This document shows, one piece after another, positions 2,278-26,849 of a DNA stretch of 37,908 bases (position 1 is the stretch's first letter; each line of letters begins with the position of its first letter). This stretch comes from Bacteroidota bacterium (GTDB lineage: Bacteria; Bacteroidota; Bacteroidia; Chitinophagales; UBA8649): contig PKDX01000055.1 of assembly GCA_002862745.1 (NCBI GenBank), positions 1-37,908 on the forward strand. The letters are read 5' to 3'. The position numbers and the translations under genes are program-made. The notes below the pieces were generated by a model. The model saw nothing but the letters and a program-made list of their open reading frames with translations. It ran no database searches and was not told the origin of the DNA.

Positions 2278-3147
2278 ATGACAGACATAGTTAGCTATAA
2301 TCCCTATGATTTACCATTACGTGATCGCCATCGATTGCTGACCGGTGCCGTTGGCCCTCGACCCATTTGTTGGGCAAGCACCCTTTCCAAAGAGGGCAAT
2401 GCCAATCTTGCCCCATATAGTTTTTTCAATCTGTTTAGCTCAAATCCTCCCATTATCGTCTTTTCATCTAATCGACGCGGCCGAGATAACACAACAAAGG
2501 ATACCTATCATAACCTTCTCGATAATGGCGAAGTAGTGGTCAACATGGTTTCCTATGATCTAGTGCATCAGATGAATATCTCCTCCACTGATTACGCAGA
2601 GAATATTAATGAGTTTTCAAAAGCAGGAGTAACCCCCATTGCCTCCGAAGTGGTAAAACCATTTCGAGTAAAGGAAGCCAAGGTGCAATTAGAATGCACT
2701 CTTGAAGACACGAAACATTTAGGAAATGAAGGAGGGGCAGGCACCCTGTTTATTTGTGCTATTCAAAAGATTCACATCCATACCTCAATCCTCGCGGAGG
2801 ATGGGCTAATTGATTCACAAAAAATTGATCTAGTGGGACGACTTGGACGAAATGACTACCTGCGGGCATCCGGAGATGCCATCTTTAGTATCAATAATCC
2901 GTTTGAAAAGCAAAACGTAGGATTTGACAACCTACCCAAAGGACTTGTGGAAAGCAAAATCCTTACTGGGGCAGAACTCGCTCAGCTCGCTATGGAAACA
3001 CAGCTTCCTTCAGAAGAAGACTTACTCAATCACCAGGAAGAAACACCTGATCATGAAGAGAAGCTTCATCAAATGATTCGAGAAAAGATAAAAGAAGGAG
3101 GCTATCAAGCGAGTCTTGCGCTAGCCATGAACTTCTATAAACGTTAG
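2278..3147 (+). CDS. Flavin reductase-like (FMN-binding split barrel) protein
   Basis: A 289-residue protein whose first ~200 residues resemble the flavin reductase-like domain: RHRLLTGAVGPRPICWAST, then NLAPYSFFNLFSSNPPIIVFS, and later NEFSKAGVTP. These are the FMN-binding and dimer regions of the family. The C-terminal third, LPSEEDLLNHQEE onward, is charged and helical. The frame is open upstream to 2224, but that start would lie inside fahA; the ATG at 2278 follows the fahA stop by 13 bases. Proteins of this kind are often found next to fumarylacetoacetase in Bacteroidota, suggesting a role in aromatic catabolism, but the substrate is unknown. Its stop codon overlaps that of the convergent ftsZ by 4 bases. 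Confidence 0.85.
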   Translation: MTDIVSYNPYDLPLRDRHRLLTGAVGPRPICWASTLSKEGNANLAPYSFFNLFSSNPPIIVFSSNRRGRDNTTKDTYHNLLDNGEVVVNMVSYDLVHQMNISSTDYAENINEFSKAGVTPIASEVVKPFRVKEAKVQLECTLEDTKHLGNEGGAGTLFICAIQKIHIHTSILAEDGLIDSQKIDLVGRLGRNDYLRASGDAIFSINNPFEKQNVGFDNLPKGLVESKILTGAELAQLAMETQLPSEEDLLNHQEETPDHEEKLHQMIREKIKEGGYQASLALAMNFYKR

Positions 3148-4553
3148 TCTATATTATTGTTGAGGTAAGCGTTGTCTTTACGAATCTCATATTGATTCCC
3201 TTTATCATCTCCAGGACCTATTGTGAACGATGAAGCATCACCAATACCTTGAGCCTCATTGCTGATCGATGTGTCTCGTCGCAGATAACTTGGCTCGTTA
3301 TACATTCGGTCACCTTGGCTTGGTTCACGCCACTTTGCACTTACATGACGCAATCGCTCTACCCGATCAACTGCTTTGAACTGCGGATCATTGGTCTCAG
3401 AAGATAACCCAGAAGGTTCAGCATTTTGGTTCGTGAGACCAACCGGCTCAACATCGGACTCTATTACATCATCTAACGTAAGCATAGTTTGGCCTACAGT
3501 ATTTGACGTCGAAGTTTCTTGCATAGTTGGCTCTAAGACATCACTGCTTGTCGCATCCGGATGTGATTGACTTTCAAGAGATACAGCACTTACTTCTTCA
3601 ATTGGCTGACCTGTATCTGATGAATGGTTAAAGCCGGTAGCAATCAAAGTAACTTTTAATTCTTCATCAAGATCATCACTGAGAGAAGTACCGAAAATCA
3701 TATCACATATCTCTCCTGTTTCATCCTGAATTTGATCAGAAATCAACTGAATCTCATCAAGCGTTACCTCTTTACTTCCGCTTGTTATGTTCAACAAAAC
3801 ATGTTTTGCACCTCGAATACTCTGCGAGAATAACAGGGGTGAATCCAGAGCTTGACTGCATGCCATTTCCGCCCGATTATCACCACTTCCAATACCCTCT
3901 CCCATGATGGCCACACCAGAATCTTTCATGACCACTCGTACATCGGCAAAGTCAATGTTAATTAGTCCTTTAATCGTAATGATCTCACTTATGGTTCGGG
4001 CCGCAATTGCCAAAATCTCATTGGCTTTATCAAATGCCTCTCGGAAAGGAAGACCACCATGACACTGACGCACGTAATCATTTTTAATGACAATAAGACA
4101 ATCCACTTGATCACGAATAAGCTCTAACCCTTCTTCTGCTTGTTTTGTCTTGCGTTTTCCTTCAAACTCAAAAGGCATGGTAACTATACCTACACTCAAT
4201 AAGTCCATTTCTCTCGCCAATTGACCTACTACAGGAGCTGCACCCGTTCCTGTGCCACCTCCCAAACATGCGGTTATGAATACCATTCTAGCTTGATCAC
4301 CAAGCATGGTTTTAAGCGCTTGCTTTGACTCAATCATCGCCTCTGCCCCAATGGCTGGATCAGAACCAGCACCTAATCCCTTGGTTAACTCTGGACCTAA
4401 TTGGAGTTTGTTAGGAATTGCACTGTCATTTAATGCCTGTGCATCCGTATTGCACACTATGTAATCCACTCCTTCTATGCCTGACTTATGCATAAAATTA
4501 ACTGCATTACTTCCTCCCCCTCCAACTCCTATAACCTTGATTATTGATGACAT
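3144..4553 (-). CDS. ftsZ: Cell division protein FtsZ
   Basis: Tubulin-like GTPase that polymerises into the Z ring at mid-cell; last gene of the dcw cluster. From the ATG at 4553 it has 469 residues. The P-loop-like KVIGVGGGGSNAVN lies at the N-terminus, the tubulin signature GGGTGTG at residues 98-104, and the T7 loop NIDFADVR near residue 200. A low-complexity acidic linker follows, then the C-terminal peptide region NEPSYLRR and a terminal YLNNNID of the Bacteroidota type. An upstream in-frame ATG at 4598 lies inside ftsA and would add a non-conserved extension, so I prefer 4553, 13 bases after the ftsA stop. The residues before the signature read ACL rather than the usual AGM. The stop overlaps the stop of the convergent flavin reductase gene. 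Confidence 0.98.
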   Translation of the reverse strand: MSSIIKVIGVGGGGSNAVNFMHKSGIEGVDYIVCNTDAQALNDSAIPNKLQLGPELTKGLGAGSDPAIGAEAMIESKQALKTMLGDQARMVFITACLGGGTGTGAAPVVGQLAREMDLLSVGIVTMPFEFEGKRKTKQAEEGLELIRDQVDCLIVIKNDYVRQCHGGLPFREAFDKANEILAIAARTISEIITIKGLINIDFADVRVVMKDSGVAIMGEGIGSGDNRAEMACSQALDSPLLFSQSIRGAKHVLLNITSGSKEVTLDEIQLISDQIQDETGEICDMIFGTSLSDDLDEELKVTLIATGFNHSSDTGQPIEEVSAVSLESQSHPDATSSDVLEPTMQETSTSNTVGQTMLTLDDVIESDVEPVGLTNQNAEPSGLSSETNDPQFKAVDRVERLRHVSAKWREPSQGDRMYNEPSYLRRDTSISNEAQGIGDASSFTIGPGDDKGNQYEIRKDNAYLNNNID

Positions 4554-4566
4554 AGATAAAATAGGT

Positions 4567-5832
4567 TTAGTTAAAATCCTCGTGCTCAGGTCCACCAAGC
4601 AGTATCTCTTTCAAATTCATTCCACTAAACCCGCCAAGTAGCTTACTCAGAACAGCAGGTTTAGCACTTTTTCCTAATGTTTGCTCAAATCGGAAACCCA
4701 TTTCACATAGACCGATTCCCGTAGCAAATAGCGGGTGACGCAGCTCAGCATCGAAATTATTTGCCAGGCGCTCAATGGGCTCACCAACGCGCGTATCGAT
4801 TCCAGTAACGTACTCGGCAAGTTGAGAGATATGCCTCAATTTGGACCCACCTCCTGTGAGCACAATGCCTGCAAGGAGCTTACCATGATATCCCGAAGCA
4901 CGAATTTCCATATCTACCAACTCAAAAATTTCGCCCATTCGACATTTGATAATTTCCGATAAAGTTTGTACCGAGATTTGCCTTGGCTGTCCCCCATTAA
5001 CCCTTGGAATTGAAACGACTTGATGCTTTGTCGAGTCTACAGAAATCGCGACGCCAAACTTTGTTTTAAGTTTTTCAGCTTGATCTTCAAGAATATGACA
5101 CCCATGTTGGATGTCATTTGTGATAACCTGTCCCCCAAAAGGAATAACTGCTGAGTGGCGAATAACATTCTTATGGAAGATGGCAATATCAGTTGTACCA
5201 CCGCCGATGTCCACAAGAACCACTCCCGCCTCTTTTTCTTTTTCAGAAAGAACTGCTGCCGATGAGGCAATGGGTTCTAAGACTAAATTCTTTAAGGTAA
5301 GTCCTGCACGCTTGATCGATTCTTCGATCATTTTTGCTGCTTGGATTTTTCCTGTAATTACATGGAAGTTTGCACTCAAACGACTACCCATACAACCCAC
5401 GGGCTCCAGAATATTGGTTTGGCCATCTATAGTATATTCTTGGGGTAGAACGTGAATAATTCGCTCATCAGGACCTACAGCAGTATTGTACATTTCCCGA
5501 GTCAACCGCTGTACTTCATCTTCTGTGATATCCGTATTGGGTTCTTGCATATTGATGACATGCATTTGCTGACTGCTTCGAATATGCGAACCTGCAATTC
5601 CCACATAGACTTCATCAATCGTTTGCCCTGAAGAGGCTTCTGCTATACTTACCGCCTTCTCGATGGCTTCTTGTGTCTGTCGTACATTTTGGACTTGGCC
5701 ACGAACTACACCATAGGACGGAGCTTTACCTACGGCAATAATCTCTAGCTTACCCTCTTCAAGCTTTTTTGCAACAAGAGCGGTAACCTTTGTGGTTCCA
5801 ATATCAATACCAACACAAATGTTGTTTTCCAT
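4567..5832 (-). CDS. ftsA: Cell division protein FtsA
   Basis: Actin-like ATPase that tethers FtsZ filaments to the inner membrane and recruits later divisome proteins. The 421-residue length is normal. The phosphate-1 motif VGIDIGTTKV is at residues 7-16, the second nucleotide motif VDIGGGTTDIAIF near residue 205, and the adenosine motif VLTGGGSKL in the C-terminal half. The SHS2/1C region (HVINMQEPN) is present between the nucleotide motifs. The C-terminus GMNLKEILLGGPE may form the membrane-targeting helix. The start at 5832 has an A-rich leader (AAAAGAAAGAA) instead of a strong Shine-Dalgarno site. It sits 17 bases after ftsQ and 13 bases before ftsZ, as expected for coexpression. Confidence 0.97.
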   Translation of the reverse strand: MENNICVGIDIGTTKVTALVAKKLEEGKLEIIAVGKAPSYGVVRGQVQNVRQTQEAIEKAVSIAEASSGQTIDEVYVGIAGSHIRSSQQMHVINMQEPNTDITEDEVQRLTREMYNTAVGPDERIIHVLPQEYTIDGQTNILEPVGCMGSRLSANFHVITGKIQAAKMIEESIKRAGLTLKNLVLEPIASSAAVLSEKEKEAGVVLVDIGGGTTDIAIFHKNVIRHSAVIPFGGQVITNDIQHGCHILEDQAEKLKTKFGVAISVDSTKHQVVSIPRVNGGQPRQISVQTLSEIIKCRMGEIFELVDMEIRASGYHGKLLAGIVLTGGGSKLRHISQLAEYVTGIDTRVGEPIERLANNFDAELRHPLFATGIGLCEMGFRFEQTLGKSAKPAVLSKLLGGFSGMNLKEILLGGPEHEDFN

Positions 5833-5849
5833 TTCTTTCTTTTATTTCT

Positions 5850-6626
5850 TTAGTTCTGTTTGAGACGACATATTACCTGACCTTCATAGCGCGTATCCAA
5901 TTCCTCAACCTGTTGCCAATCCAAAGAATGAAACTTAGCTTGATAGAAAGCACTTAGATCTTGCATTTCCTTCTCAACAGCATCTGGACGTCCAATTCGC
6001 ACATGATGCCCGCTAATTGATGTAACCAAGGTTAACTGGTTTGCAGTATCCAAGTGAATTTGCTCTACAATCGCTTCAAGGAAGGGATCTTCGCTTATCG
6101 ATTCAGCATATTCTCTCAATGTATTTTTCAAAGAAAATTCAGCCCAAAAGTGATCATCCGGTATACTACCAGAACACACTAATAGCTTTCCTATAAAGAT
6201 ATCAGATACGGGGGCTGAGTTGCCATTTTTGTCAACATAGTATTGAACACCATGATTGTTTATAATATGAAAGAGCGCATGCTTTGGCTGAATGTCTACA
6301 GAGAGAATTCCCTCATTGTTCAGATAAACTTCCGCATTGTCAATCCACTGGGAATTGGATAATCTTGATTCTATCACCTCTTCCTTGATCGCTGAACGCT
6401 TGGTTTTACCCACTTGAAGATTATATTCCTCGGTTAGAATTGCAAGAACAAAAGCCTCATCAATCATGGCACCATCGCCTTCACTTAGCTGTATATCTAT
6501 TTCATTTACAGTACTTTGCATCCAAAAACGATCCATTTCTGAAAAGGACAATAAGGCTACAATTCCAAGAAGAATAAACGCAGTATTGAGCAATTGCGCT
6601 CGAGAAAAATTCTTACGCTTTACCAT
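5850..6626 (-). CDS. ftsQ: Cell division protein FtsQ
   Basis: A bitopic membrane protein linking the cytoplasmic and periplasmic parts of the divisome. It has 258 residues: a short basic cytoplasmic tail (MVKRKNFSRAQ), one membrane helix at about residues 12-29, then a periplasmic region. That region has a POTRA-like part (VIESRLSNSQWIDNAEVYLNNEGILSVDIQPKHA) and a beta domain ending in RYEGQVICRLKQN. Sequence conservation in this family is low; position between murC and ftsA plus topology make the identification firm. The start overlaps the murG-murC stop by 14 bases, suggesting translational coupling. Confidence 0.9.
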   Translation of the reverse strand: MVKRKNFSRAQLLNTAFILLGIVALLSFSEMDRFWMQSTVNEIDIQLSEGDGAMIDEAFVLAILTEEYNLQVGKTKRSAIKEEVIESRLSNSQWIDNAEVYLNNEGILSVDIQPKHALFHIINNHGVQYYVDKNGNSAPVSDIFIGKLLVCSGSIPDDHFWAEFSLKNTLREYAESISEDPFLEAIVEQIHLDTANQLTLVTSISGHHVRIGRPDAVEKEMQDLSAFYQAKFHSLDWQQVEELDTRYEGQVICRLKQN

Positions 6627-9093
6627 AGGTCAAATCAAGTTTTTGCTGAATGGAAGGAATCAATGCGGAGATATCTCCAGCTCCCGCAGAGACGACAAAG
6701 CCCTTAGGTAAAGTGTCTACAAGAGACAACACTTCCTCTTTATCGTGTTGTAGTGTTCTGCAAGAAATCGTAACGTGATCAGCAACTAATGCGCTAGTCA
6801 CCCCCTTAATAGGTTCTTCACGAGCCGGATAAATCGGAAGAAGAATCACTTGGTCTGCTGCACTTAATGCCTCACCAAACTCCTTGGCGAGCATTTGCGT
6901 TCGAGTAAACAGATGGGGTTGAAAGATTATAACCACTGGCCAGTTAGGCTCCATGCTTCGCAGTCCGTGAATCAAGGCAGTAATCTCACTTGGATGATGG
7001 GCATAGTCATCTATATACGTCCATCCCTCTCCACCCGTTATGACTTGGAAACGGCGTTTTACGCCGGGGAAAGTTGATAACGCGTCCATGGCACTTTCAA
7101 TCGAAAGATTATGATTTTGAGCCACCGCAATTGACGCTATAGCATTTTTGACATTATGAATACCCCCGAGTGGGAGTTTACCACTGTACTCCTTACTTCC
7201 TACGGTAAAGACATAGGTAAAGGCATCGCCATCCCATTGAGCTTTACTCAACCTCCAATCCTTTTGAGAGGATAATCCATAGGTTGCTCGAGATAGACTG
7301 GGATTGCACGACCTAGGTATACTGACACTAGGGCCAATAATTAAGTGTCCATCAGAGGCAATACGACGAATAAAACACTCAAATCCACGTTGAACACCTT
7401 GTAAATCGCCATAGATTTCTAAATGATCGGCATCGATAGTTGATATAACTGCCGTGTTTGGTCTCAAGTGTAAAAATGACCGATCAAACTCATCAGCTTC
7501 GACCAAAAAGATATCTCCGTCTCCTACTAGTCCACCTTCTTGACCAACAAATTGTCCTCCGATAAATCCGGTGACTGACTTAGAATTAGCCATAAATACG
7601 TGGGTAATCATAGAGGTAATGGTTGTCTTACCATGGCTTCCCGCAACTGCTATTGTCGTTCGATTTTGAGTCAATAAACCCAAACACTCTGAGCGTTTTA
7701 ACAGACTAACGGACTTGCGTTGAATGGCTTGTAAAAACACAGGATTATCCTTACTTATAGCAGGAGTGTATACAACTAAATCAACCGCTGCAGGAATTAC
7801 ATCATCCAATGTATATCCAATTCGTGCACCCCTAGCCTCCAAGTGCTGAGTTATAGAAGTAGCCTTGCGATCATATCCAGATACATCAAGCCCCTGATTG
7901 AGAAAATAGTGGGCAAGCGTGTTCATCCCTGCGCCGCCAATTCCAATAAAATATATATGGCGAACTTGGGTTAAATCATGTTGATGTAAGTAATGTGGAA
8001 GGTTGCATTCTTTTACAATGTATTGCACAATATCGTGCGCTGCATAAGGTTTAGCAAATTGCTCAAGCGCAATAGACAGCTCTTCTTGCCGCTTCCTGTC
8101 TTCTAACAAATGAATCACTTCATGGCCCATTTTATCTCGGGCATTCTCATCGGAAATTTTAAGTATGGCCCGAGCATCCACCATAGCTTGTGCATTTTTG
8201 TTCTGATGATCTTCAGTAACATTAGGGGATGGGATTAAAATCGAAGGCTTAGCAATTAAGGCTAACTCAGAAATGGTCGAAGCACCTGCTCTAGCAACAA
8301 TAACATCCGCTGCTAAGTAGGCTAGATCCATTCGATCAACATAAGCCATCACTTTAACACGTTCACCATGATGAGCTTTAAACCGCTCATAATAATAGGA
8401 ACCCGACTGCCATAGTACTTGAATTCCCTTTTCTTGAAACAGCGGAAGTGCTAAGGCCATGCTATCATTGAGGGTTTGCGCCCCTAGACTTCCACCCGTC
8501 ATAAATACTATAGGGCGTGTGGAATCAAGATCGAAGTGTTCGCATGCTTCTTCTTTCGAAATCGAGGGGTCCACCGTGGAACGAATGGGATTTCCCGTAA
8601 TTTCTAACGACGTCTCAGTGAAGTATTGTTGCATATTAGGATAGGCCACAAAAGCCGCCTTAACCTTTTTTGCAAGAAGTCTATTGGTCTTACCTGGTGC
8701 TGCATTTTGCTCCTGCAAATACGTTGGAAGCCCCATCCATTGAGCCATTTTTAAACAGGGCCCACTAGCAAATCCTCCTAGACCAATGACAGCATCGGGA
8801 CTAAAGGATTTCAAAACCTTGTAGACTTTAACGAAGCTTATCAGAAGCCGAAAGGGAAAAAGCAAATTAGCCATAGAAAAACCAGGCTGGATTCCGCGAA
8901 CAGGAAGCCCCACAATAGAGTAACCAGCCTCCGGAACCCTTTTCATTTCAACCTTGCCATTGGCTCCAACAAAAAGAATTTCAACCTCATAGGGCAACTC
9001 CTTAAGCGCATCAGCAATAGCAATAGCAGGGTAAACATGACCTCCTGTGCCACCACCACTTAGTATAATGCGTAGAGGAAGTCTTGGAGCCAT
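6613..9093 (-). CDS. murG-murC: MurG-MurC fusion protein
   Basis: One uninterrupted 826-residue frame encodes two peptidoglycan enzymes. Residues 1 to ~362 are MurG, the lipid II-forming GlcNAc transferase, with GGGTGGHVYPAIAIA (from residue 13), GLGGFASGP, EQNAAPGKTNR, TGGSLGAQ and ARAGASTISELA. Residues ~375-826 are MurC, UDP-MurNAc:L-alanine ligase, with the Rossmann motif FIGIGGAGM (from ~382), the ATP loop GSHGKTT (485-491), VEADEFDRSF, the HLEIYGD segment and DDYAHHPSEI. The junction ECNLPHYLHQHDLTQVR has no stop and no in-frame ATG, so separate translation of MurC is not obvious. MurG acts on lipid I at the membrane and MurC on a soluble nucleotide early in the pathway, so the fusion joins non-consecutive steps. 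The gene starts 3 bases after ftsW and overlaps ftsQ by 14. Confidence 0.95.
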   Translation of the reverse strand: MAPRLPLRIILSGGGTGGHVYPAIAIADALKELPYEVEILFVGANGKVEMKRVPEAGYSIVGLPVRGIQPGFSMANLLFPFRLLISFVKVYKVLKSFSPDAVIGLGGFASGPCLKMAQWMGLPTYLQEQNAAPGKTNRLLAKKVKAAFVAYPNMQQYFTETSLEITGNPIRSTVDPSISKEEACEHFDLDSTRPIVFMTGGSLGAQTLNDSMALALPLFQEKGIQVLWQSGSYYYERFKAHHGERVKVMAYVDRMDLAYLAADVIVARAGASTISELALIAKPSILIPSPNVTEDHQNKNAQAMVDARAILKISDENARDKMGHEVIHLLEDRKRQEELSIALEQFAKPYAAHDIVQYIVKECNLPHYLHQHDLTQVRHIYFIGIGGAGMNTLAHYFLNQGLDVSGYDRKATSITQHLEARGARIGYTLDDVIPAAVDLVVYTPAISKDNPVFLQAIQRKSVSLLKRSECLGLLTQNRTTIAVAGSHGKTTITSMITHVFMANSKSVTGFIGGQFVGQEGGLVGDGDIFLVEADEFDRSFLHLRPNTAVISTIDADHLEIYGDLQGVQRGFECFIRRIASDGHLIIGPSVSIPRSCNPSLSRATYGLSSQKDWRLSKAQWDGDAFTYVFTVGSKEYSGKLPLGGIHNVKNAIASIAVAQNHNLSIESAMDALSTFPGVKRRFQVITGGEGWTYIDDYAHHPSEITALIHGLRSMEPNWPVVIIFQPHLFTRTQMLAKEFGEALSAADQVILLPIYPAREEPIKGVTSALVADHVTISCRTLQHDKEEVLSLVDTLPKGFVVSAGAGDISALIPSIQQKLDLTYGKA

Positions 9094-9096
9094 AAT

Positions 9097-10287
9097 TTAT
9101 ATGCGATTTATATGTTTCACCTGACTGCCCTCCACCTCTTGCTTGTCTTGATTGACCTCCTGACTCACACTAAGAATTATTCCCATGGCAATGCTTGTAA
9201 AGATCATAGAGCTACCCCCCATACTTACCATAGGAAGGGTAAGCCCGGTAACAGGAAAGAGATTTACCGCAACCGCCATATTTGTAAATGCCTGGAATAC
9301 AATTAATAGACACAACCCAAACGCAAGGAAAACGGGGTAAGCCTTGGGCGCCTTGAGTACCATGCGAATGGTTCGAAAAAGTATAATTAGATATAAGAGT
9401 ATCATCACAAATCCCCCTAACAGACCATACTCTTCAATGATGATTGCATAGATATAATCTGAGTAGGGGTGCGGTAAGAAGTTTTTCTGTTTTGAGTTAC
9501 CCGGACCGTTAGGGAAAATTCCTCCTCGTGCAATGGCGATTTCGGCCTGTCGAACTTGGTACATATCCATCGCCTTTTCACTCGGATTAGAATATCCTTC
9601 GATTCGGTGTTTCCAAGTCAAGAGCCGTCCCGCACTCTCAAGGTTAGTATCGGGTGTATTTTTTAGAAAAAGTATAAAAAGAACTGCCACCAAGAGCATG
9701 AGTGCCGCAACACTGACAAGTTGAAGTAAATGGACGCGGCCAATAAATAAGAGTATAAAGGAGGTTGCAAAAAGAATGACTGCCGTAGACAAATCATGGA
9801 TTGCAATCAGAAAACATATACCAACAATAAAGGCGATTGCTGGCACAAAAGTTTCCTTAAAAGACTTGATCGTATCTTGTTTAAGGGATAAATACCGAGC
9901 TAAGTACATCACCAGAGTAATCTTTGCAAAGTCAGACACCTGAAAACTTATGCCAAAAACCCTCACCCACCGGCGGGCATCATTAATATCATTACCCCAG
10001 AAAAGAACAAGAATGAGAAGAAAAATACTCAATCCAAAGAATGGGAAAAAGATGTTTTGAGCAAATAATCGATAGGGTAACAAATGAAAAAACCACATCA
10101 ACAATAGACCAATACCGGCCATTAGAAATTGCTTCCCCAAGTAATGTTCTGTATTGCCATCTTGCAACTTATAGGCTAAAGTCCCTGTGGAAGAATACAC
10201 CGCAAGCATGCCAAAAATGGAAAGCATTATAACGGCAAACCATATTACACGGTCACCTTGTATTAAACGGCTATACCTTGATATCAT
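9097..10287 (-). CDS. ftsW: FtsW, SEDS-family septal peptidoglycan glycosyltransferase
   Basis: Polytopic inner-membrane polymerase that works with FtsI to build septal peptidoglycan. It has 396 residues with about ten hydrophobic segments. SEDS hallmarks: the FGISFQVSDFAKITLVMYLARYL segment carries the conserved (Q)xSE/D-FxK pattern, NGPGNSKQKNFLPHPYSDYIYAIIIEEYGLLGG is the large periplasmic loop (about residues 260-290), and the C-terminal LFPVTGLTLPMVSMGGSSM is the usual family signature. The start ATG overlaps the murD stop (ATGA). Its position between murD and murG favours FtsW over the paralog RodA. Confidence 0.96.
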   Translation of the reverse strand: MISRYSRLIQGDRVIWFAVIMLSIFGMLAVYSSTGTLAYKLQDGNTEHYLGKQFLMAGIGLLLMWFFHLLPYRLFAQNIFFPFFGLSIFLLILVLFWGNDINDARRWVRVFGISFQVSDFAKITLVMYLARYLSLKQDTIKSFKETFVPAIAFIVGICFLIAIHDLSTAVILFATSFILLFIGRVHLLQLVSVAALMLLVAVLFILFLKNTPDTNLESAGRLLTWKHRIEGYSNPSEKAMDMYQVRQAEIAIARGGIFPNGPGNSKQKNFLPHPYSDYIYAIIIEEYGLLGGFVMILLYLIILFRTIRMVLKAPKAYPVFLAFGLCLLIVFQAFTNMAVAVNLFPVTGLTLPMVSMGGSSMIFTSIAMGIILSVSQEVNQDKQEVEGSQVKHINRI

Positions 10288-11642
10288 AACTCACGCACGG
10301 CCTGTTTAAATTGATCTCCACGATCTTCAAAATTGGAAAATCGATCGAAGGAAGCACATGCAGGAGAGAGAATAACGCTATCCCCCGGATCAGAAAACTG
10401 ATAAGAGACTTGAACAGCCTCAGCCATTGAGGAAACATTGATACAGATTCCAACATGCTTGGCAAAAGCCTCATGTAGTTTACGATTGTCGGCGCCAATA
10501 CAAACAAGAGACTTCACTTTTTGATGAACGAGCCCCTCAAGAATTGAATAGTCATTCCCTTTATCGACTCCTCCAGCAATCCAAACCACGTCGGTAGTCA
10601 TGGCCTCTAATGCATACCACGTAGAGTTTACATTGGTTGCCTTTGAGTCATTGATAAAACTCCTACCTCCAATACGTAAAACCCTTTCCATTCGGTGAGG
10701 TAATCCGTCAAAACGTTCCAAACTCTGCCGAATACTTGGATTGGTTACCTCTAAGGCGCGAGCAGCCATTCCAGCAGCAAGAGAATTATATACATTATGA
10801 TTTCCCTTTAAGATTAAATCGTTCATAGCAATAGTTATAGGGTTTGTAGAAAAGTTAAAATGAATCTCGCCGTCCTTGGCAAAGGCTAAGCAAGCAGTTT
10901 GTTGAATTGAAAATTGTTGAATCATAGCACGACTTCCCTCTTGGTCAAGTAACTGAGCAATGGGTTGGTCATCTGCTGACAGAATTAGAATATCCTCTGG
11001 CTGCTGATTTTTAGTAATGCGCCATTTCGATTGGGCATACAAGTCTATAGAGCCATTGTATCGATCTAGGTGATCAGGGGTAATGTTTAATATCACGGCA
11101 ATATCCGGACGAAACGCATCGATATCATCGAGTTGGAAACTACTGACTTCGACAACGAAGCAATCCACATCGTGTTCGGCGACAAAGCGTGCATAGCTCG
11201 TACCTACATTACCAACGAGTGCAGAGGGAATGCCTGCTCGCTGTACCATATCAAAAATCCAATTTACCGTAGTCGTTTTGCCGTTGCTGCCTGTCACAGC
11301 AATTACCTTTCCTTTATGAAAAAGCCATGCCCACTCTAATTCACTAATTATTTTTTGTCCTCGCTCACCCGCATCGATAAGCATTGGAATATGGTTGGGA
11401 ATACCCGGACTTTTTATAATTAAATCAGCCGCCTGAATTCGAGAAAGATCATGCCCTCCTTCTTCATAGGGGATATCATATTGGTGCAAGTCCTCTTTGA
11501 AGCGAGCCTTAATCATAGCAGCATCGCTCACAAAAACTTCATATCCTTTCTTTGCAGCCAAGATAGCCGCTCCAACTCCAGACTCACCACCACCTAGGAC
11601 CACAATGGACGTCGATAAATTATATGTCGGCTTAACCATCAT
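10284..11642 (-). CDS. murD: UDP-N-acetylmuramoylalanine--D-glutamate ligase MurD
   Basis: Adds D-Glu to UDP-MurNAc-L-Ala in the cytoplasm. From the ATG at 11642 it has 452 residues, normal for MurD. The N-terminal Rossmann motif [13 protein letters not shown], the ATP loop GSNGKTTT near residue 118, [20 protein letters not shown] and [15 protein letters not shown] mark the central and C-terminal Mur ligase domains. The frame opens further upstream at 11696, but that would lie inside mraY. Here two adjacent ATGs overlap the mraY TGA (ATGATG), so the first gives a 4-base ATGA overlap. The 3' end overlaps ftsW in the same way. Confidence 0.96.
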
Positions 11643-12898
11643 CGAATCTTGAGGGTTATGATTGAAAATGCCGCCATTGCAATGGCTATAATCCAAAAAC
11701 GCGTCACGATCTTCGTCTCATGCCAACCTTTCTTTTGATAATGGTGATGGAGAGGAGACATCAAAAAGATCCGTTGTCCTACCCCTGTTTTTTTCTTAGT
11801 GTACTTAAAATAGGCTACCTGAAGAATCACCGAGAGGTTCTCAATTAAAAAGATTGCGCAAAGGACCGGTATGAGTAATTCCTTGCGCAACAAGATCGCT
11901 AAAGAGGCTATAATCCCACCAAGCGCAAGGCTACCAGTATCTCCCATGAATACCGTTGCAGGATAACTATTGTACCACAAAAAGCCGACACAAGCTCCGA
12001 CAAAGGCGGCGAGGTAAACGACGGTTTCTTGGGAGTTAGGTATGTACAGTACGTTAAAATATTCCGCCAGAACAATATTTGACGAGACATAGGCAAAAAC
12101 AAACAGGGTAACCCCTACGATAGCGCTTGTTCCTGTAGCAAGACCGTCTAACCCGTCGGTAAGATTGGCTCCGTTGGATACAGCCGCAATGATAAATATG
12201 ACCATCGGGATAAAAAAGAGCCAAGCATATTTCCTTGTCTTCTCACTCTGTGTAATCCACACTAATGGTGCCTCATAATTGAATTCGTTACCCTTAAAGA
12301 AGGGGATATTTGTCACAGGCTCCTTGATTTTAACAAAGAAATGCCTGTCACCACCTTCATCGCGCATAGAAGATATTCGAGAGGACTCAAAGCGCTCCAC
12401 CTCATGTTGAGCAATCTCCTGCTTTACGTAGATTTCTGGATGGAGATATACAGCACATCCAACGATAAGTCCCAAGCCCACTTGGCCCAATATTTTAAAT
12501 CGTCCGGCAAGTCCTTTCTTGTTTTTTCTGTAGACTTTTATATAATCATCTAAAAAACCAATCAGCCCCATCCAAATCGTACTTACAATGAGTAATTGGG
12601 TATAGATATTTTTTAAATCACCGAATAGGATTAGCGGAATGAGAATAGCCGCTAGAATTATAATCCCGCCCATAGTCGGCGTGCCCGCCTTTTCCTTTTG
12701 ACCTTCTAATCCCAAATCCCGGATAGACTCTCCGATTTGTTTCTTACGCAGGATGTTAATTATACGGCCCCCAAAGATTAGCGAAATGAGAAGGGACACA
12801 AAAAGTGCAAGTCCTGCCCGTACAGAAACATACTGCATGATACCTTCTCCATAGAAGTCATAATTAGATGATAGAAAGTTCCAAAAATGATAAATCAT
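11639..12898 (-). CDS. mraY: Phospho-N-acetylmuramoyl-pentapeptide-transferase MraY
   Basis: Transfers phospho-MurNAc-pentapeptide to undecaprenyl phosphate, making lipid I in the inner membrane. The 419-residue length suits Bacteroidota MraY, which carries a longer periplasmic loop (here around residues 155-215, rich in charged residues) than the ~360-residue enterobacterial enzyme. Family motifs include [26 protein letters not shown] with the catalytic Asp pair, [12 protein letters not shown] near residue 245, and the [11 protein letters not shown] motif near the C-terminus. The start at 12898 overlaps the murE stop (ATGA); the N-terminus up to MQYVSVRAG fits the family, so the internal Met is not preferred. 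Confidence 0.97.
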
Positions 12899-14361
12899 GA
12901 CCCCACAGATTTAAGTGCATCAAATAAAACTTTACCATCGTCAAAAGGAAAGACCTTGTCCCCAAAGACTTGAGTCGTTTCATGCCCCTTGCCTGCCACA
13001 AGGACAATATCATTGGGCTGAGCCATACCTACCGCTTTATATATTGCCTCCTTTCGGTCAACTATAATCGAACACTTCCGTCGAGAGGAGAGCTCAACTC
13101 CCTGAAGCATGGCTTCACAGATATCTTCAGCCTCCTCATTCCGTGGATTATCTGCAGTAAAAATTACTTGGTCGCTTAATCGAGCGGATAATTGACCCAT
13201 TTTGGGACGCTTGGTAATATCTCGATTCCCACCACAACCAATTACGGTTATGACACGCATTCCTCCACGTAGAACCTCTCGTATCACCTCTAACACTTTC
13301 TGAACAGCATCAGGCGTATGCGCATAATCAATTATGCCTGTTACCTGAGTTGCCTCAGTTAACACAATTTCCATCCGACCCTTAGCCCCTCGTATAACAG
13401 ATAGCGTGCGTAGTATATCCTCTTCTTTGCTCCCCAGCAAATGAGAAGCAGCATAGACCCCTAATAAATTTGTGGCGTTAAAACCACCAATCATATGGGT
13501 ATGTACTTCAGCACCATCAATATTGAGGACTAATCCAGCAATATCCTGCTCCAATACTCGAACGCGGTAATCTGATGGGCCATATTGACTGTAACTATAA
13601 ATTGAGGCCTTGGTGTTTTGCACCATATAGCTCCCATTTTTATCATCAATGTTTACCAGGGCAAAAGCCGATGAATGGAGGCCATCGAATGCAAGCTTTT
13701 TAGCATCCCGATAGGCTTTCATTGATTTATGATAGTCCAGATGATCATGCGTCAAATTCGTGAAAATCATACCATCAAAAGCTAGAGCGGATGGACGGCG
13801 CTGAATCAATCCATGAGAAGAAACCTCCATAAATACGTGACTACAATTGAAATTTGCCATCTCGCGTAGCATGGAAGAAATCTGTCGTGCATCAGGAGTT
13901 GTATGGGTAGCTTCTATTACCCGGCTCCCAATGCGAATGACATTTGTTGAGATCAAGCCGCACATATGACCAAGTTGCGTATGAAGCTCCCATAGCATAC
14001 TTGCAATGCTTGTCTTGCCGTTCGTTCCTGTTACGCCCACAAGCTTTAGCGTCTTGGAGGGGTTGTCATACCAATTTTCACAAAGCCTAGCATAGGCCTT
14101 ATCACTTCGTAAAACTCGGATATACACCACTTGATCATCTACAGACTCAGGTATTCGCTCGCACAAAATGGCACGGGCTCCTGCTTTTATAGCCTGATCA
14201 ATGTAATCGTGTCCATCAACATGGCTTCCAGTTATCGCCACAAACATCATGTCTGATTCCACTTTGCGGGAATCGGAAGTAAAATCTTGAATGGCTAGGT
14301 CTGTATTACCCAGCACCTCCAGCATGTTGACTTCATACAATATGTCGCGTACGTTTTTCAT
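12895..14361 (-). CDS. murE: UDP-MurNAc-tripeptide synthetase MurE (meso-DAP type)
   Basis: Adds the third amino acid of the stem peptide in the cytoplasm. The 488-residue protein has the N-terminal TSDSRKV substrate motif, ATP loop GTNGKTS from residue 112, [18 protein letters not shown] and the DYAHTPDAV segment. The specificity motif DNPR occupies residues 404-407, which in characterised MurE enzymes indicates meso-diaminopimelate rather than lysine. This agrees with DAP-type peptidoglycan and with the OmpA domain encoded at 30758-34069, whose family binds DAP. It overlaps ftsI at its start and mraY at its end by 4 bases each. Confidence 0.97.
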
Positions 14362-16475
14362 TGCAAAACAAGATGTATTTTACTATTCTTATCAACGACA
14401 CTTCCTGCCTCTGGCCACTGTGTTGCCACATAACCATGGCCCTCACAACTCACCCTGTAGCCATATCTTGAGCAAAGACTTACCGCGTCAGACAACCCCA
14501 TTCCCATTAAGTAGGGAACTCTATTTTCTTCCGTTCTATATTGGTCATCCGTGCTGATTGTTGCATAATCATTGGACTCGCCTAAATCAACTTGGCTAAT
14601 CGCATAGAGTGGCTGCTCTGAATCAATGTTTAACAGGTTGGAAAGAATCTTCCAATCTTCCGAAAGCATTGAACTCATTGTTACTCCATCGCTTGCAAGC
14701 AATGCCGAAGGCATTTGACTTTGCTCTCCTATTCTGGCATAAGCGAATTCAGCTATGTCCCCGAATACCGGAGCAGCCGTACTCCCACCACCAATACCGT
14801 CATGTTCCTTGGCATCGATGTACGATAAAACGACAATCATGCTGTATTGAGGTTTCTCAACAGGGAAGAATCCGCAAAACAGCGCCCGCTTTATGTCATC
14901 CTCATACGCATAATCACCATCTTTAATCATGGTAGTACCTGTTTTACCACATATCGAGACATTGCGGGAAGAAAGGGCATTATGCGCCGTTCCCCGCGAG
15001 TCATTAACGACAAGCTTCATCATCGAAGTAAGATTTTGAGCTGTTTCGGGAGACATTAATTTACCTAGCTCAATGGTGGGAAATGTCTTGACGGTTTGAC
15101 CAAGCTTACTCGTATGACTTACCAAACGAGGTTGCACAGCAATACCATTATTGGCAATCGCATTGTAGTGTGTTAAAATATGCAAGGCCGTAAGTCGCAG
15201 GCCATAGCCAAAAGACTTCCATGCTTTATCAATAATGCCCCAAGATTCAACCGCGGGAATCTGTAATCCCTCTTCTCCATGTATTGTTATTCCTGTCTTT
15301 TCATAAGGGAATTGTTCAAAGAGAGCATCGCGAAAAGACACATTATTTGGAAAAAGTTCATCTACCATTTGAACTATACCAATATTAGAAGAGTACTTTA
15401 TGATGTCATACGCATCATAGTAGTCTTTCTTTGGCCTAGATGAAATAGGAACCTTTATGCCTGCCACGCGAAATTCACCATTGTGCATAGAGACCAGTTT
15501 ATCTAGAGGCATACCATGTTCTAAGAGGGCCGCCATGACAGGTATCTTCATCGTAGATCCAGGTTCGAATAGAGTCCCTACAGCATGGTTATACTGTTCA
15601 ACATACTCCCCTTCGCCATTGCGTTCTAGGTTGACCATGGTCAATACATTGCCTGTCTTGACTTCCATCAATAAGACACATCCATTTTTTGCATCGTACT
15701 CCTCTAAGCTTTTTCGTAAGGTTGCATCTGCAAAATCTTGCAGATCAATGTCTAATGTTGTATGAATATCTAATCCGGGATCGGGCTCAACATCATCACG
15801 TTCGATGTGCGGCAATGTCGTTTGCTGGGACACAACCTTTCTAAAGACCAGACCCTTTTCACCTTCTAACTCTGTATTGAAGTAGTGCTCAAGTCCAACA
15901 ATTCCTTGAGACGTATCCCCTGTTTGTCGTGTATAGCCTATCGTGCGTTGAGCCAGTCCTCCAAAAGGAAGCATCCGGTCGATAGAATGCTCAATGATTA
16001 GACCTGATGTATAACGACCTCGATCAAACCAAGGAAACGATTTAATGCGCTCTTTTTGACTGTAGGTTAAATCATCAGCTAAAAAATAATACCGCGCACC
16101 ATCGAGATAGCCCTGTTGTATGTGGTCCATCCATTGCTCACTTGTTTTATAATTGAATACAGAGGCAAGTGAATCACATAACTCAGGAAGCAATTGAATA
16201 AACTCCTCGCCTTGGACACCCTCAATCTTAAAATCCATATGTAACGAATACAGTTTAACCGTAGTCGAAAGGAGTCTGCCATCTGAAGTGAGTAGATTAC
16301 CTCGCTGGGCAGGAATCACTTCAACGGTTACCTCCAGGCTATCCGATTCGGCGATCAATTCGTCACCATATTTGTATTGGGTAATCCCAGCTCGTCCAAA
16401 AATGACCAGTGCAAAAATTGCCAGTGTAATGCCCACAACCCAAACACGCCATATGATATCAACTCGCTTATTCAT
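14358..16475 (-). CDS. ftsI: FtsI / penicillin-binding protein with PASTA domain
   Basis: Septal D,D-transpeptidase (class B PBP) that crosslinks new peptidoglycan together with FtsW. It has 705 residues: a short cytoplasmic tail, one membrane helix at about 10-30, a PBP dimerisation region (VIPAQRGNLLTSDGRLLS) and the transpeptidase domain. Active-site motifs are visible: STMK with nucleophile Ser307, SSN at 362-364 and KTGT at 511-514. A single C-terminal PASTA domain covers roughly 650-705 (VPYLMGMGLSDAVSLC...). PASTA-bearing FtsI is usual in Bacteroidota. Its start overlaps the ftsL-like gene by 8 bases and its stop overlaps murE by 4. Confidence 0.97.
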   Translation of the reverse strand: MNKRVDIIWRVWVVGITLAIFALVIFGRAGITQYKYGDELIAESDSLEVTVEVIPAQRGNLLTSDGRLLSTTVKLYSLHMDFKIEGVQGEEFIQLLPELCDSLASVFNYKTSEQWMDHIQQGYLDGARYYFLADDLTYSQKERIKSFPWFDRGRYTSGLIIEHSIDRMLPFGGLAQRTIGYTRQTGDTSQGIVGLEHYFNTELEGEKGLVFRKVVSQQTTLPHIERDDVEPDPGLDIHTTLDIDLQDFADATLRKSLEEYDAKNGCVLLMEVKTGNVLTMVNLERNGEGEYVEQYNHAVGTLFEPGSTMKIPVMAALLEHGMPLDKLVSMHNGEFRVAGIKVPISSRPKKDYYDAYDIIKYSSNIGIVQMVDELFPNNVSFRDALFEQFPYEKTGITIHGEEGLQIPAVESWGIIDKAWKSFGYGLRLTALHILTHYNAIANNGIAVQPRLVSHTSKLGQTVKTFPTIELGKLMSPETAQNLTSMMKLVVNDSRGTAHNALSSRNVSICGKTGTTMIKDGDYAYEDDIKRALFCGFFPVEKPQYSMIVVLSYIDAKEHDGIGGGSTAAPVFGDIAEFAYARIGEQSQMPSALLASDGVTMSSMLSEDWKILSNLLNIDSEQPLYAISQVDLGESNDYATISTDDQYRTEENRVPYLMGMGLSDAVSLCSRYGYRVSCEGHGYVATQWPEAGSVVDKNSKIHLVLQ

Positions 16476-16788
16476 CAGCGGATATTTTGATTGACTCTAA
16501 GGGTTGGTTGGGCACCTGAAGACCTATTGTATCTACGCTTTTACTGACTACCATTAAGGTAGACTCCTGCATAAAGTCAGCCTTTTCATTGAGATAGGTC
16601 CAACGCAATTCATCAATAGCATCCTGATCTCGATCGTACTCCTTTAACATGGACTCCACTTGATGATTGTTAGCAACATGAATTCCACATAAGACCGCAA
16701 GAAATATCACAAAAGGCATACTTCCCCACTGGCTGCTTACTTTTTTAAGCGGTGCCTTATCCGGTGTGGTATTTGACGATTTGCTCAT
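16468..16788 (-). CDS. ftsL: FtsL-like cell division protein
   Basis: A small bitopic protein of 106 residues: a basic/polar cytoplasmic tail, one hydrophobic segment at about residues 27-41 (FVIFLAVLCGIHVAN), then a helical segment likely to form a coiled coil (VESMLKEYDRDQDAIDELRWTYLNEKADFM), followed by a short tail. This topology, and its position between rsmH and ftsI, match the FtsL-like proteins of Bacteroidota, which bridge FtsQ/FtsB-type and FtsWI components. Primary sequence conservation is poor, so assignment rests on size, topology and synteny. It begins 3 bases after rsmH. Confidence 0.88.
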   Translation of the reverse strand: MSKSSNTTPDKAPLKKVSSQWGSMPFVIFLAVLCGIHVANNHQVESMLKEYDRDQDAIDELRWTYLNEKADFMQESTLMVVSKSVDTIGLQVPNQPLESIKISADE

Positions 16789-16791
16789 GAT

Positions 16792-17721
16792 TTATTTTGC
16801 CTCTTGGTCTACCTTACATGCTACGCGAAGCCTTGCACTACGAGCTCGACTATTTTTTGCCACCTCTTCTGAACTAGGCGTCTGGCTATGTACTTTATCC
16901 TCCTTCCAATTGGATGGCTGGGCCCCAAAAATCGGGTCATACGATTCTTCAGACGAGCCGAGTCCTTTAATCGCTCTTTTCACCAAACGATCCTCCAGCG
17001 AATGAAAGGTTATAATTGCCATATACCCGCCTGGCTTTATACATTTAGGCAGGCTATCAAGAAAATCCGTTAAAGAAGACAGTTCTTCATTTACCGCAAT
17101 ACGCAGGGCCTGATAAACTTGTGCTAAATATTTTTCTCTAGGACCACGGATTACCGGTTTGATCCAGGCATTGAAATCTTGGGTTGTTTTAATACTGCCG
17201 ATCGAAGGATGGGCTTGAAGTCTTTTGACAAGCTCCTTTGCATTACGCACCTCACCATAACTCGAAAACATATTGAGGAGGTCTTCAGGTGTAGATTCCG
17301 ATAAAATATCCTTAGCAGTCTTTCCATGATTATAATTCATCCTCATATCTAGAGGACCGTCAAAACGAGTGGAAAATCCCCTTGTACCCTCGTCAAATTG
17401 ATGGGATGAAACTCCTAAATCAGCTAGTACGCCGTCAACTTGACCAATTTCAAAATAGTTAAGAAAGGATTGGATGAAGCGGAAATTCCTCGGAATAAAA
17501 AGAAGCCGCTCATCGGATAGCAAATCGGCATTGAGCTTAGCATCTGGATCTTGATCAAAGGCAATCAGCCTTCCCTTTGAACCGAGACGGCTAAGAATAA
17601 CGCGACTGTGTCCACCGCCGCCAAAGGTTGCATCGACATAGGTACCATTTTCCTGGATATGCAATGCGTCAACGGCTTCTTCAAGCATAACTGGAATATG
17701 GTATTTATCCATCACCATCAT
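16792..17721 (-). CDS. rsmH: 16S rRNA (cytosine1402-N4)-methyltransferase RsmH
   Basis: SAM-dependent methyltransferase (also MraW) that modifies C1402 of 16S rRNA. The 309-residue length is normal. The N-terminal HIPVMLEEAVDAL, SAM-binding VDATFGGGGHSR, IAFDQDPDA, the DGVLADLGVSSHQ motif, the RGFSTRFDGPLDMRMN segment and the ITFHSLEDRLVK motif near the C-terminus are all present. The ATG at 17721 overlaps the mraZ stop (ATGA); a second plausible ATG at 17712 would give the shorter MDKYH start. It is the second gene of the dcw cluster. Confidence 0.97.
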   Translation of the reverse strand: MMVMDKYHIPVMLEEAVDALHIQENGTYVDATFGGGGHSRVILSRLGSKGRLIAFDQDPDAKLNADLLSDERLLFIPRNFRFIQSFLNYFEIGQVDGVLADLGVSSHQFDEGTRGFSTRFDGPLDMRMNYNHGKTAKDILSESTPEDLLNMFSSYGEVRNAKELVKRLQAHPSIGSIKTTQDFNAWIKPVIRGPREKYLAQVYQALRIAVNEELSSLTDFLDSLPKCIKPGGYMAIITFHSLEDRLVKRAIKGLGSSEESYDPIFGAQPSNWKEDKVHSQTPSSEEVAKNSRARSARLRVACKVDQEAK

Positions 17722-18173
17722 TCGTCAACCGATAAATCGCCAAGTACATCCTCTGCTAAGTCTGCAAAGTTGTCCGAACTTATATTGAGTTCAGCTTCAT
17801 AACGCTTGCTATCCCAAAGCTCTAAGGTGTTTTTTCCCGGCGTTAGAATGGCCTCGCCAGTTATTCCAGCATATTCAAGCAGATGCTTCGGAAGATTTAA
17901 TCGATCTTGCCCATCGAGCACCACCTCGGTGGCTCCTCGCATAAAGTATCGAATAAAGCTTCTCTCCTTTTTCTTAAACTGATTTAAGCGCTCTATTCTT
18001 GCCCTAACCTTTTCCCATACATCAATAGGGTAGATCTCAAGACAGGACTCAAAGCCACGATTGACGACAAAACGGCCTTTGTTTTCCGGCTTCATTTGTT
18101 GCTTTAAACCACCCGGCAAACGCATGCGACCTTTTGCATCGATCTTAACGGTATGTTCTCCTAAAAACGCCAC
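17718..18173 (-). CDS. mraZ: MraZ, transcriptional regulator of the dcw cluster (GTG start)
   Basis: DNA-binding protein with two AbrB-like SpoVT domains that forms rings and binds repeats in its own promoter. From the GTG at 18173 it has 151 residues, the usual size, beginning at FLGEHTVKIDAKGRMRLP and containing the second DAKGR-like element LDGQDRLNLP. The frame is open to an ATG at 18260, but that would add 29 residues (rich in Trp/Lys) absent from the family and would place the phased operator-like repeats (18209-18243) inside the coding region. A purine-rich GAAAGAAAA directly precedes the GTG. First gene of the cluster; overlaps rsmH by 4 bases. Confidence 0.9.
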   Translation of the reverse strand: MAFLGEHTVKIDAKGRMRLPGGLKQQMKPENKGRFVVNRGFESCLEIYPIDVWEKVRARIERLNQFKKKERSFIRYFMRGATEVVLDGQDRLNLPKHLLEYAGITGEAILTPGKNTLELWDSKRYEAELNISSDNFADLAEDVLGDLSVDE

Positions 18174-18208
18174 TTTTCTTTCTAGTGTAGATAAAACTAC
18201 ATTAAAAA

Positions 18209-18243
18209 GCCAATTATTACCACTTTTTACCACCTGCAACCAC
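18209..18243 (-). promoter_or_regulatory. Putative MraZ operator: 10-bp phased repeats
   Basis: On the plus strand ACCAC occurs at 18219-18223, 18229-18233 and 18239-18243, exactly 10 bases apart, with a degenerate GCCAA at 18209-18213 in the same register. Read on the coding strand these are GTGGT boxes with 5-base spacers. MraZ proteins of other bacteria bind tandem TGGG- or GTGG-type boxes with the same 10-base spacing upstream of mraZ, so autoregulation of the dcw operon is the likely role. The array lies 36-70 bases upstream of the GTG start. Confidence 0.75.
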
Positions 18244-18274
18244 CAACATTTCTTCCACATGAATCATCAAAGAT

Positions 18275-19579: not shown

Positions 19580-20806
19580 TTAGCGTGTAAACATACGGCG
19601 TAACTCGACGAATATCATAGCCGCGTTTACAGCGACCATCGTCACAACAACAAAGCCCAAGAAAACAAAAGTTTTCCAAGACAGCACCTGGCCTTCCACC
19701 GCAAAGCTAAACCCATCTAGAAAGGGTAAAACCACCATGGTCTTTATACCATACACCACAAAAAACGCCACGACCGATACGATTAGAAAAAGCAGGGCCA
19801 ATCCCTTTACATACCACATCAAAACAGTAACTGGTCGAACTCCTTGGATCAATATAGATTCAATTTGATTTTTAGATCGCGTCAACATTAACTGAACGGT
19901 CAGCAGAACACCTGTCAAGCTAAGCAATAGCACAAAGAAGCCCAACATACCTACGGCGATAAATGCACCACGAAAAAGAGCAGCGTTTTCCCCGGTTCTC
20001 AGCTTGGTCTCATTGGTTTCATATCCATGGTCTGCAAGGTACTGTTTGAGCTCTACTATGCGTTCAAGAGCAAATCTGACGGCAATCCGTTTTGAAAGTG
20101 TATCGCTTTCTGCCTTAGGATTTGCAAACGTTGTATTAAGATGCTCTAAAAAATCACAGGGGACCAAGACAGCGCTGATTCGATCACTGTAACCCGCAAT
20201 TCTTGCATTAAACGAAGCCTTTGTTGGATACCGAAGAGAATCCGAGGGCAGCAACTTGAGCTTAAGAGAAGTTAAGTCGTCTTCCGCCAAGGAAATAAAT
20301 CCGCTAGTGAGTACACTGGATAAGCGAAGAAAATCTTTGGGAAGAAGAATAGGCACATCCATCATACCATCTTCAGATAATGACCAAGACCAATCCGAAT
20401 CAATGCCATCAATTATGGCTGGATCCACACACTCAACCCCAAACATATCGCTTCGGATCGGAGCACCTTTGACGTCGATAAGCAGAGACATATTGACCAA
20501 ATTCCTTTGAAAGGGATACACATTGATCACGGAGGACAGCGAGTCGAGTGAATCCAATTCCGATTGTCTGAAAAATACTTCCTCAGCATCACCAAATCCC
20601 GTCTCGGTAACAGGCTTAGAGAGAATCATTACATCTTCCCCTATTCCCTCTTGGCTAGCGTCTCTAATGGATTGATAATCAATAAATCCCTGCATCGCAA
20701 TGGCCATCAACACGAAACTAAACAGCAGGCCAGCAACTTGCATTACGAGTTGGCTTGGGCGCAATCCACTAATTAAAATCCGTGTAAGAAATGGCGGCCT
20801 TCTCAT
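19580..20806 (-). CDS. ABC transporter permease, MacB/FtsX-like
   Basis: An integral membrane protein of 408 residues with one hydrophobic helix near the N-terminus (about 21-42), a long extracytoplasmic region (about 45-275) and three to four helices in the C-terminal third (about 280-400), ending in a basic tail. This is the layout of type VII ABC permeases (MacB, LolC/E, FtsX), where the complex transduces force across the membrane rather than moving a small solute. Sequence similarity to a named member is not evident by eye. It overlaps the ATPase gene by 4 bases, so the pair forms one unit. It is longer than typical FtsX (~300 residues), so FtsX itself is unlikely. Confidence 0.7.
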   Translation of the reverse strand: MRRPPFLTRILISGLRPSQLVMQVAGLLFSFVLMAIAMQGFIDYQSIRDASQEGIGEDVMILSKPVTETGFGDAEEVFFRQSELDSLDSLSSVINVYPFQRNLVNMSLLIDVKGAPIRSDMFGVECVDPAIIDGIDSDWSWSLSEDGMMDVPILLPKDFLRLSSVLTSGFISLAEDDLTSLKLKLLPSDSLRYPTKASFNARIAGYSDRISAVLVPCDFLEHLNTTFANPKAESDTLSKRIAVRFALERIVELKQYLADHGYETNETKLRTGENAALFRGAFIAVGMLGFFVLLLSLTGVLLTVQLMLTRSKNQIESILIQGVRPVTVLMWYVKGLALLFLIVSVVAFFVVYGIKTMVVLPFLDGFSFAVEGQVLSWKTFVFLGFVVVTMVAVNAAMIFVELRRMFTR

Positions 20807-21450
20807 ACCTTTTTAATCGTTAAGTCTATGAGTTTATTATCCGTGTCCAGCGAGGTAATGATCAGCCCTGCATGCTTGGATTGGATATCATCTAAAACAA
20901 GCTCCCATACAATTGCTTGGTTAGCCTTATCGAGATGGCTAAACGGTTCATCAAGCAAAAGCCATTGATACGGCTTCGACAAAGCCCTTAACAGGGCAAT
21001 TCGCTGGCGTTGGCCAAAAGACAGAATAGACGTCTTTTTGTGGAGTAAGGATTGAATACCCAAGCGCTCTGCCCAAGCTTCGATTTGATCTCGACTCGCC
21101 GAGCCTTCAAAACGGCTCGCTACAAACTGAATATTCTCCAATGCCGTAAGGTTGTCAAACAAGCGTAATCCCTGAGGAACAATGGAAAGACTGTGAGCAC
21201 GCCAAGCTGACCATTGGTTGTCAGTCCACTTACTTGTTGGAGCGTCTTGAATAATCAAGTTCCCAGAATAATCTTTTCGAATTCCCGCAATTAAAGAAAG
21301 CGCCGTTGTTTTACCGCGACCACTTTCAGCAAAAATCCCATAAGTCTCTCCCTGAGTGAATGTGTGCCGACCATGCCACAATGTATCCTCGCTACGACCT
21401 AACTCACGCAGAGGATGCGGCATTACATCATGAAAAACAATATCGGCCAT
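20803..21450 (-). CDS. ABC transporter ATP-binding protein with altered H-loop
   Basis: A 215-residue nucleotide-binding subunit. Walker A is AESGRGKT at residues 41-48, the Q-loop Gln is in VPQG (~93), the signature is LSFGQ at 143-147 (usual LSGGQ), Walker B is LLLDEP at 164-169 and the D-loop SHLD follows. The expected switch His after strand 'IITS' is replaced: the segment reads IITSLD at 197-202, where many relatives have TSHD. It is therefore probably an unusual or slow ATPase, though function may be retained. It pairs with the MacB/FtsX-like permease encoded immediately downstream and starts 12 bases after the DUF4836-like gene. Confidence 0.88.
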   Translation of the reverse strand: MADIVFHDVMPHPLRELGRSEDTLWHGRHTFTQGETYGIFAESGRGKTTALSLIAGIRKDYSGNLIIQDAPTSKWTDNQWSAWRAHSLSIVPQGLRLFDNLTALENIQFVASRFEGSASRDQIEAWAERLGIQSLLHKKTSILSFGQRQRIALLRALSKPYQWLLLDEPFSHLDKANQAIVWELVLDDIQSKHAGLIITSLDTDNKLIDLTIKKV

Positions 21451-23663: not shown

Positions 23664-23692
23664 TTTGGCTGTTTCTTTGCAAGATAGATTTG
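23664..23692 (+). promoter_or_regulatory. Promoter-like element abutting the arginine decarboxylase start
   Basis: TTTG at 23664-23667 and TAGATTTG at 23685-23692 are separated by 17 bases, an exact match to the Bacteroidota -33/-7 promoter pattern. The transcript would start around 23697-23700, only a few bases before the ATG at 23702. Confidence 0.5.
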
Positions 23693-23701
23693 CAAGGGCT
23701 T

Positions 23702-26540: not shown

Positions 26541-26849
26541 CTAAGATCGATAACCGCCTCCGCGACGATCTCTACCTCCACGATAGCCCCCTCCGCCATC
26601 ACGCTTGGGTCGATCTTCGGCTTCTTTGACTACGATTTGGCGTCCATCAACTTCAGCCATATTGAGGTTTTCAATAGCTGAACGTGCGCTGTCATCGTCC
26701 GGCATTTCAACGAAACCGAAGCCTTTAGACCGGCCTGTGTCGCGATTAATAATTATCTTACAAGAAGCCACCTCACCGTATTCTTCAAATGATGATTGAA
26801 GGGTTTCCTCAGTGGTATCGAAATTTAGTTTTGCTACAAAAAGATTCAT
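26541..26849 (-). CDS. RRM RNA-binding protein, short paralog
   Basis: A 102-residue protein with one RNA recognition motif: RNP2 LFVAKL at residues 3-8 and RNP1 KGFGFVEM at 42-49. A short Gly/Arg tail (GGGGYRGGRDRRGGG) ends the protein. It is clearly paralogous to the product of 25562-26365 across the RRM, including the shared KEAEDRP segment after the domain, but lacks the expanded repeats. Both genes have the same leader sequence and point the same way, so this is a tandem duplication followed by divergence of the tails. It is divergent from the M20 dipeptidase gene. Confidence 0.95.
   Translation of the reverse strand: MNLFVAKLNFDTTEETLQSSFEEYGEVASCKIIINRDTGRSKGFGFVEMPDDDSARSAIENLNMAEVDGRQIVVKEAEDRPKRDGGGGYRGGRDRRGGGYRS

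Follow-up and report, generated by a model that had tools for sequence, protein, structure and literature searches.

Here, we report a fused murG-murC gene that very probably encodes a genuine bifunctional MurG-MurC enzyme, with its two modules on a flexible tether, fixed in one Bacteroidota genus known here from MAGs. The gene lies in the 37,908-nucleotide stretch of DNA that was analyzed (the window), and the same stop-free 826-codon frame occurs, at 90% identity, in both of the other genomes of the genus (G001 and G002; coding sequences identical to public contigs DLYY01000002.1 and PAPS01000022.1). The identical frame in three species, and not the mere lack of a stop, was decisive in accepting the fusion as genuine; a random 33-codon stretch at the same G+C content is stop-free with a p of about 0.14, so an open stretch alone is weak evidence. 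The original prediction of a genuine fusion is borne out at the sequence level by a single open frame, complete halves, and three congeneric genomes.

Fused gene and genome context

The murG-murC frame, as translated from the window, comprises 826 codons plus a stop on the minus strand (positions 9093..6613; stop codon, 6613..6615), with a predicted product mass of 90.3 kDa. The MurG half (lipid I GlcNAc-transferase, GT28; residues 1-362; 8008..9093, minus strand) was assigned with TIGR01133, PF03033, and PF04101, and scored 254.4 bits against the TIGR01133 murG equivalog cut-off of 250.25 (residues 8-359; profile positions 7-353 of 353). The MurC half (UDP-MurNAc--L-alanine ligase; residues 378-826; 6616..7962, minus strand) was assigned with TIGR01082, PF01225, PF08245, and PF02875, and scored 355 bits against the TIGR01082 murC equivalog cut-off of 335.1 (residues 379-813; profile positions 1-446 of 449). 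Assignment of this half to Mpl (UDP-MurNAc:tripeptide ligase) was rejected at about 165 bits for TIGR01081, under the cut-off of 388.7. The halves are joined by a linker (residues 363-377; 7963..8007, minus strand), predicted to be a disordered tether from the three-species alignment and pLDDT. The linker had been described from the window as about 15 residues long with no stop or in-frame ATG, which holds (the first ATG after the MurG half is M390), and the motif positions given with it were exact (GGGTGGH, 13-19; FIGIGGAGM, 382-390; GSHGKTT, 485-491).

In the MurG half, the GGTGGH, GxGG, GGSLGA, RAGxxTxxE, and DHQxxNA motifs are all present, and 41 of the 43 positions invariant across 36 unfused relatives are retained, catalytic motifs among them; the two deviations are R to P/S at residue 70 and one F to Y. 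Aligned to solved MurC structures, the MurC half retains the P-loop GSHGKTT, EADE, DADH, DDYAHHP, and QPHLFTRT (P-loop, metal, and L-Ala sites), and deviates at 3 of 70 invariant positions (A388, N391, and G521), all outside the P-loop, metal, and L-Ala motifs. With the catalytic motifs all intact, both MurG and MurC activities are expected in the fused chain. In the three-species comparison, dN (0.04 to 0.05) was well under dS (0.32 to 0.46) in both halves, indicating that both are under purifying selection. The MurC half nonetheless has a long branch and evolves much faster than its counterparts in sister genera (mean distances of 3.04 and about 1.7, respectively), so that altered kinetics or specificity is possible, and GIGGIGMS has become GIGGAGMN.

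The fused gene forms part of a dcw cluster, identified by family matches (3144..18260, minus strand), with the order mraZ, rsmH, ftsL, ftsI, murE, mraY, murD, ftsW, murG-murC, ftsQ, ftsA, and ftsZ, which is that of Bacteroidota-type clusters. Directly upstream, after a 3-nucleotide gap, lies ftsW (9097..10287, minus strand; PF01098, 260.7 bits); ftsQ (5850..6626, minus strand), called from PF03799 at threshold plus its dcw position, overlaps the 3' end of the fused gene by 14 nucleotides. No other MurG or MurC copy was found in the genome (99.04% complete, 0.58% contaminated). No promoter or terminator signal at the murG/murC junction exceeded that of shuffled sequences.

Distribution, origin, and possible gain

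Surveys at the level of the order (398 genomes), the class (395), the phylum (395), and one family (298), which overlap and together cover about 1,300 distinct genomes, detected stop-free joint murG-murC frames in 11 Bacteroidota genomes, namely, the three of the genus and eight others: G111, G1289, and G1158 in family f18; G553, G756, and G719 in genus g265; and G542 and G673 in family f84. These counts are lower bounds from a nonrandom sample, as the survey joins only neighbors in register and may miss fusions with long linkers. The genes are unfused in two other g65 species and in the other f71 genera wherever both were found, and the surveys support the earlier expectation that murG and murC are separate in most Bacteroidota. 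Four further candidates (G034, G046, G196, and G200) were rejected, their reported frame lengths reading through stops and their real open reading frames being separate. G673 was rejected as an FtsW-MurG-MurC triple fusion; its MurG begins with a Met of its own, ftsW occupies a separate open reading frame in another frame, and the 200-residue N-terminal extension is an open stretch upstream of MurG. The single-genome fusions in G111, G1289, and G1158 are candidate cases and may be artefacts. In G1289 (L121), where murG reads through in frame into murC, a MurC-type start ATG persists 13 codons ahead of GIGG. This genome may still make a separate MurC, and its joint frame could be a halfway stage toward fusion or an assembly error.

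A maximum-likelihood tree built on joined MurG and MurC sequences of 45 genomes (without G1289 and G1158, which were found later) gave four changes of the fused label, counted without direction; all four were forced by well-supported branches alone, and the bootstrap values at the 5% and 95% points were likewise four. This supports a minimum of four separate state changes within the class, most plainly read as four fusions, since the genomes around each fused clade are as a rule unfused.

In the three sister-genus genomes of the family (G003, G004, and G005), murG and murC are separate. Two of the three (G003 and G005) have a 4-nucleotide ATGA overlap of murG and murC, with murC in another frame, and in G004 about 650 bp separate the genes. 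Such 4-nucleotide ATGA overlaps are typical of translational coupling. We infer that the fusion arose through an indel at an ancestral ATGA overlap and that covalent coupling thereby replaced translational coupling; a lost stop would have been insufficient, as murC is in another frame in the overlapping state.

An AlphaFold2 model from an 8-row alignment had a mean pLDDT of 80.0 and a pTM of 0.53; with so low a pTM and so shallow an alignment, it says nothing firm on the arrangement of the MurG and MurC domains. The model has a C-terminal MurG helix at residues 351-362 and the first MurC strand at 379-383, with pLDDT under 50 at 365-370 between them; this would fit a loose tether better than a fixed MurG/MurC complex. 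The two catalytic modules would most likely work independently, linked by a flexible tether of about 15 residues. MurG would dock at the inner leaflet to make lipid II, while MurC (UDP-MurNAc to UDP-MurNAc-L-Ala) would be carried along in a fixed 1:1 ratio close to MraY and MurG, where it may raise the local precursor concentration. The MurD, MurE, MurF, and MraY steps fall between MurC and MurG, and direct substrate hand-off between the two is therefore not expected. Fixed stoichiometry and proximity of MurC to the membrane are the plausible gains from the fusion, in keeping with published scaffolding of Mur enzymes by MurG (PMC6420597, PMC4929429). The suggestion, made when the fusion was first noticed, that it could bring the early pathway to the membrane and divisome is likewise plausible from that scaffolding.

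The fusion could also be real and yet neutral, a joining of frames that selection tolerated and drift fixed in a lineage with small genomes, without any benefit from coupling, and we give this a substantial chance, somewhat short of even. Its occurrence is sporadic, in some cases confined to one species whose congeners are unfused (G111, and G1289 with its MurC-type start Met), linkers vary in length and sequence among fusions, and the two steps are not consecutive; on the other hand, several separate events hit the same enzyme pair, and the fusion was retained in the sampled members of three clades. Recurrence and retention do not exclude neutrality, since gene adjacency alone may explain them. 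That the recurrent, separate fusions reflect a direct physical association, in Bacteroidota, between the first ligase and the last cytoplasmic enzyme is a tentative idea that we hold to be rather improbable; if true, the fusion would offer a natural way into the study of a membrane-docked Mur complex, which is transient elsewhere.

Junction and gene product

Alignment of the junction to close relatives, which the original prediction had proposed, revealed no stop, indel, or conserved start codon across the genus. Between the window's species and each congener, the 33 codons of the junction show 18 to 19 synonymous changes (synonymous sites here being saturated) and about 11 nonsynonymous changes, with zero indels and zero stops. 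Junction identity was 70 to 79%, a looser constraint than in the halves, with the frame always retained and the linker of equal length, without indels, in all three species.

A single frame could still yield mostly two proteins, by internal non-ATG initiation near the junction or by proteolysis in an exposed linker. An in-frame GTG at residue 356 (8026..8028, minus strand), identified by junction codon comparison as the sole alternative start near the window's junction, and an in-frame TTG at residue 360, present only in the congeners, could serve such initiation, and the linker is predicted to be disordered. The candidate start codons, however, differ in position and none is common to the species, the congeners having GTA and ACA at residue 356. 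There is no ATG across residues 345-390 before M390 itself, and a start there, inside the GIGGAGM loop, would truncate the nucleotide-binding fold. The reading frame is also preserved through an indel-free junction, for which two products with starts of their own would have no need. Release of two proteins is thus an unlikely account of the gene, and a single fused chain is the preferred reading. An assembly or sequencing artefact, in which the loss of a stop or an erroneous frameshift ran neighboring genes together, could be imagined in a draft genome of 72 contigs with genes that are normally adjacent anyway, but was rejected as exceedingly improbable on the congeners' matching frames, three separately assembled species sharing the 826-codon length and frame at 90% amino acid identity across a fast-changing junction without any indel.

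Known Mur fusions and other observations

A murG/murC fusion was reported in the actinomycete C. gilvus in 2016 (PMC4929429), and MurG/MurC was listed among known Mur fusions in a 2019 discussion (PMC6420597). Like the Bacteroidota fusion, that of C. gilvus joins the same two enzymes in the dcw cluster, and the published accounts also remark that the steps are nonconsecutive (PMC4929429, PMC6420597). The present fusion differs, in a comparison by description, in being from Bacteroidota and genus-wide, and it is supported as separate from those of three other Bacteroidia lineages. The fusion is less novel than was first implied, as fusions of this pair were reported in 2016, were discussed in 2019, and have more examples in Bacteroidia; the genus-wide Bacteroidota case is a new instance of a fusion type already known. 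No published description of Bacteroidota MurG-MurC fusions was found in the open-access literature, and among the matches listed there was no NCBIfam model for a MurG-MurC fusion, alongside models for MurC-Ddl and MurE-MurF fusions.

MurE-MurF of Bordetella likewise carries two Mur enzymes in one chain of flexible, elongated shape, and was shown experimentally to bind MurG (PMC6420597); MurE and MurF are consecutive ligases, for which channelling is conceivable, whereas MurG and MurC are nonconsecutive. MurC-Ddl (Chlamydia) and MurB-MurC (Verrucomicrobium spinosum; PMC4803751) also join MurC to another cytoplasmic peptidoglycan enzyme, but the Ddl and MurB partners are soluble and the MurG partner is membrane associated. 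The genus adds a well-supported, genus-wide example, and the other genomes sporadic ones, of fused nonconsecutive peptidoglycan enzymes. These bear on whether Mur enzymes act as a complex held by MurG, and offer natural tethered constructs for testing it.

A whole-genome profile search of the window's genome (G000) gave no Mpl above cut-off, and each of the three sister-genus genomes has an extra MurC/Mpl-like match; murein-peptide recycling may have disappeared as the genome shrank. MurF-Alr fusions are common in Bacteroidota. An 810-amino-acid protein of G000 (C8:28410-29657; L112:409-2841, minus strand) has a MurF-like half (224.5 bits, below the murF cut-off) and a C-terminal half that reads as alanine racemase, and a separate full murF lies on C9. 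Within the window are two neighboring RRM-domain RNA-binding proteins of 267 and 102 amino acids (25562-26365 and 26541-26849, minus strand). An arginine-decarboxylase-like product (23690-25093, plus strand; 467 amino acids against profiles of 624 to 636 positions), far under the family cut-off and shorter than SpeA, is possibly a divergent PLP decarboxylase. A 408-amino-acid open reading frame (19580-20806, minus strand) with no Pfam or NCBIfam match adjoins an ABC ATPase (20803-21450) and may be its permease partner.
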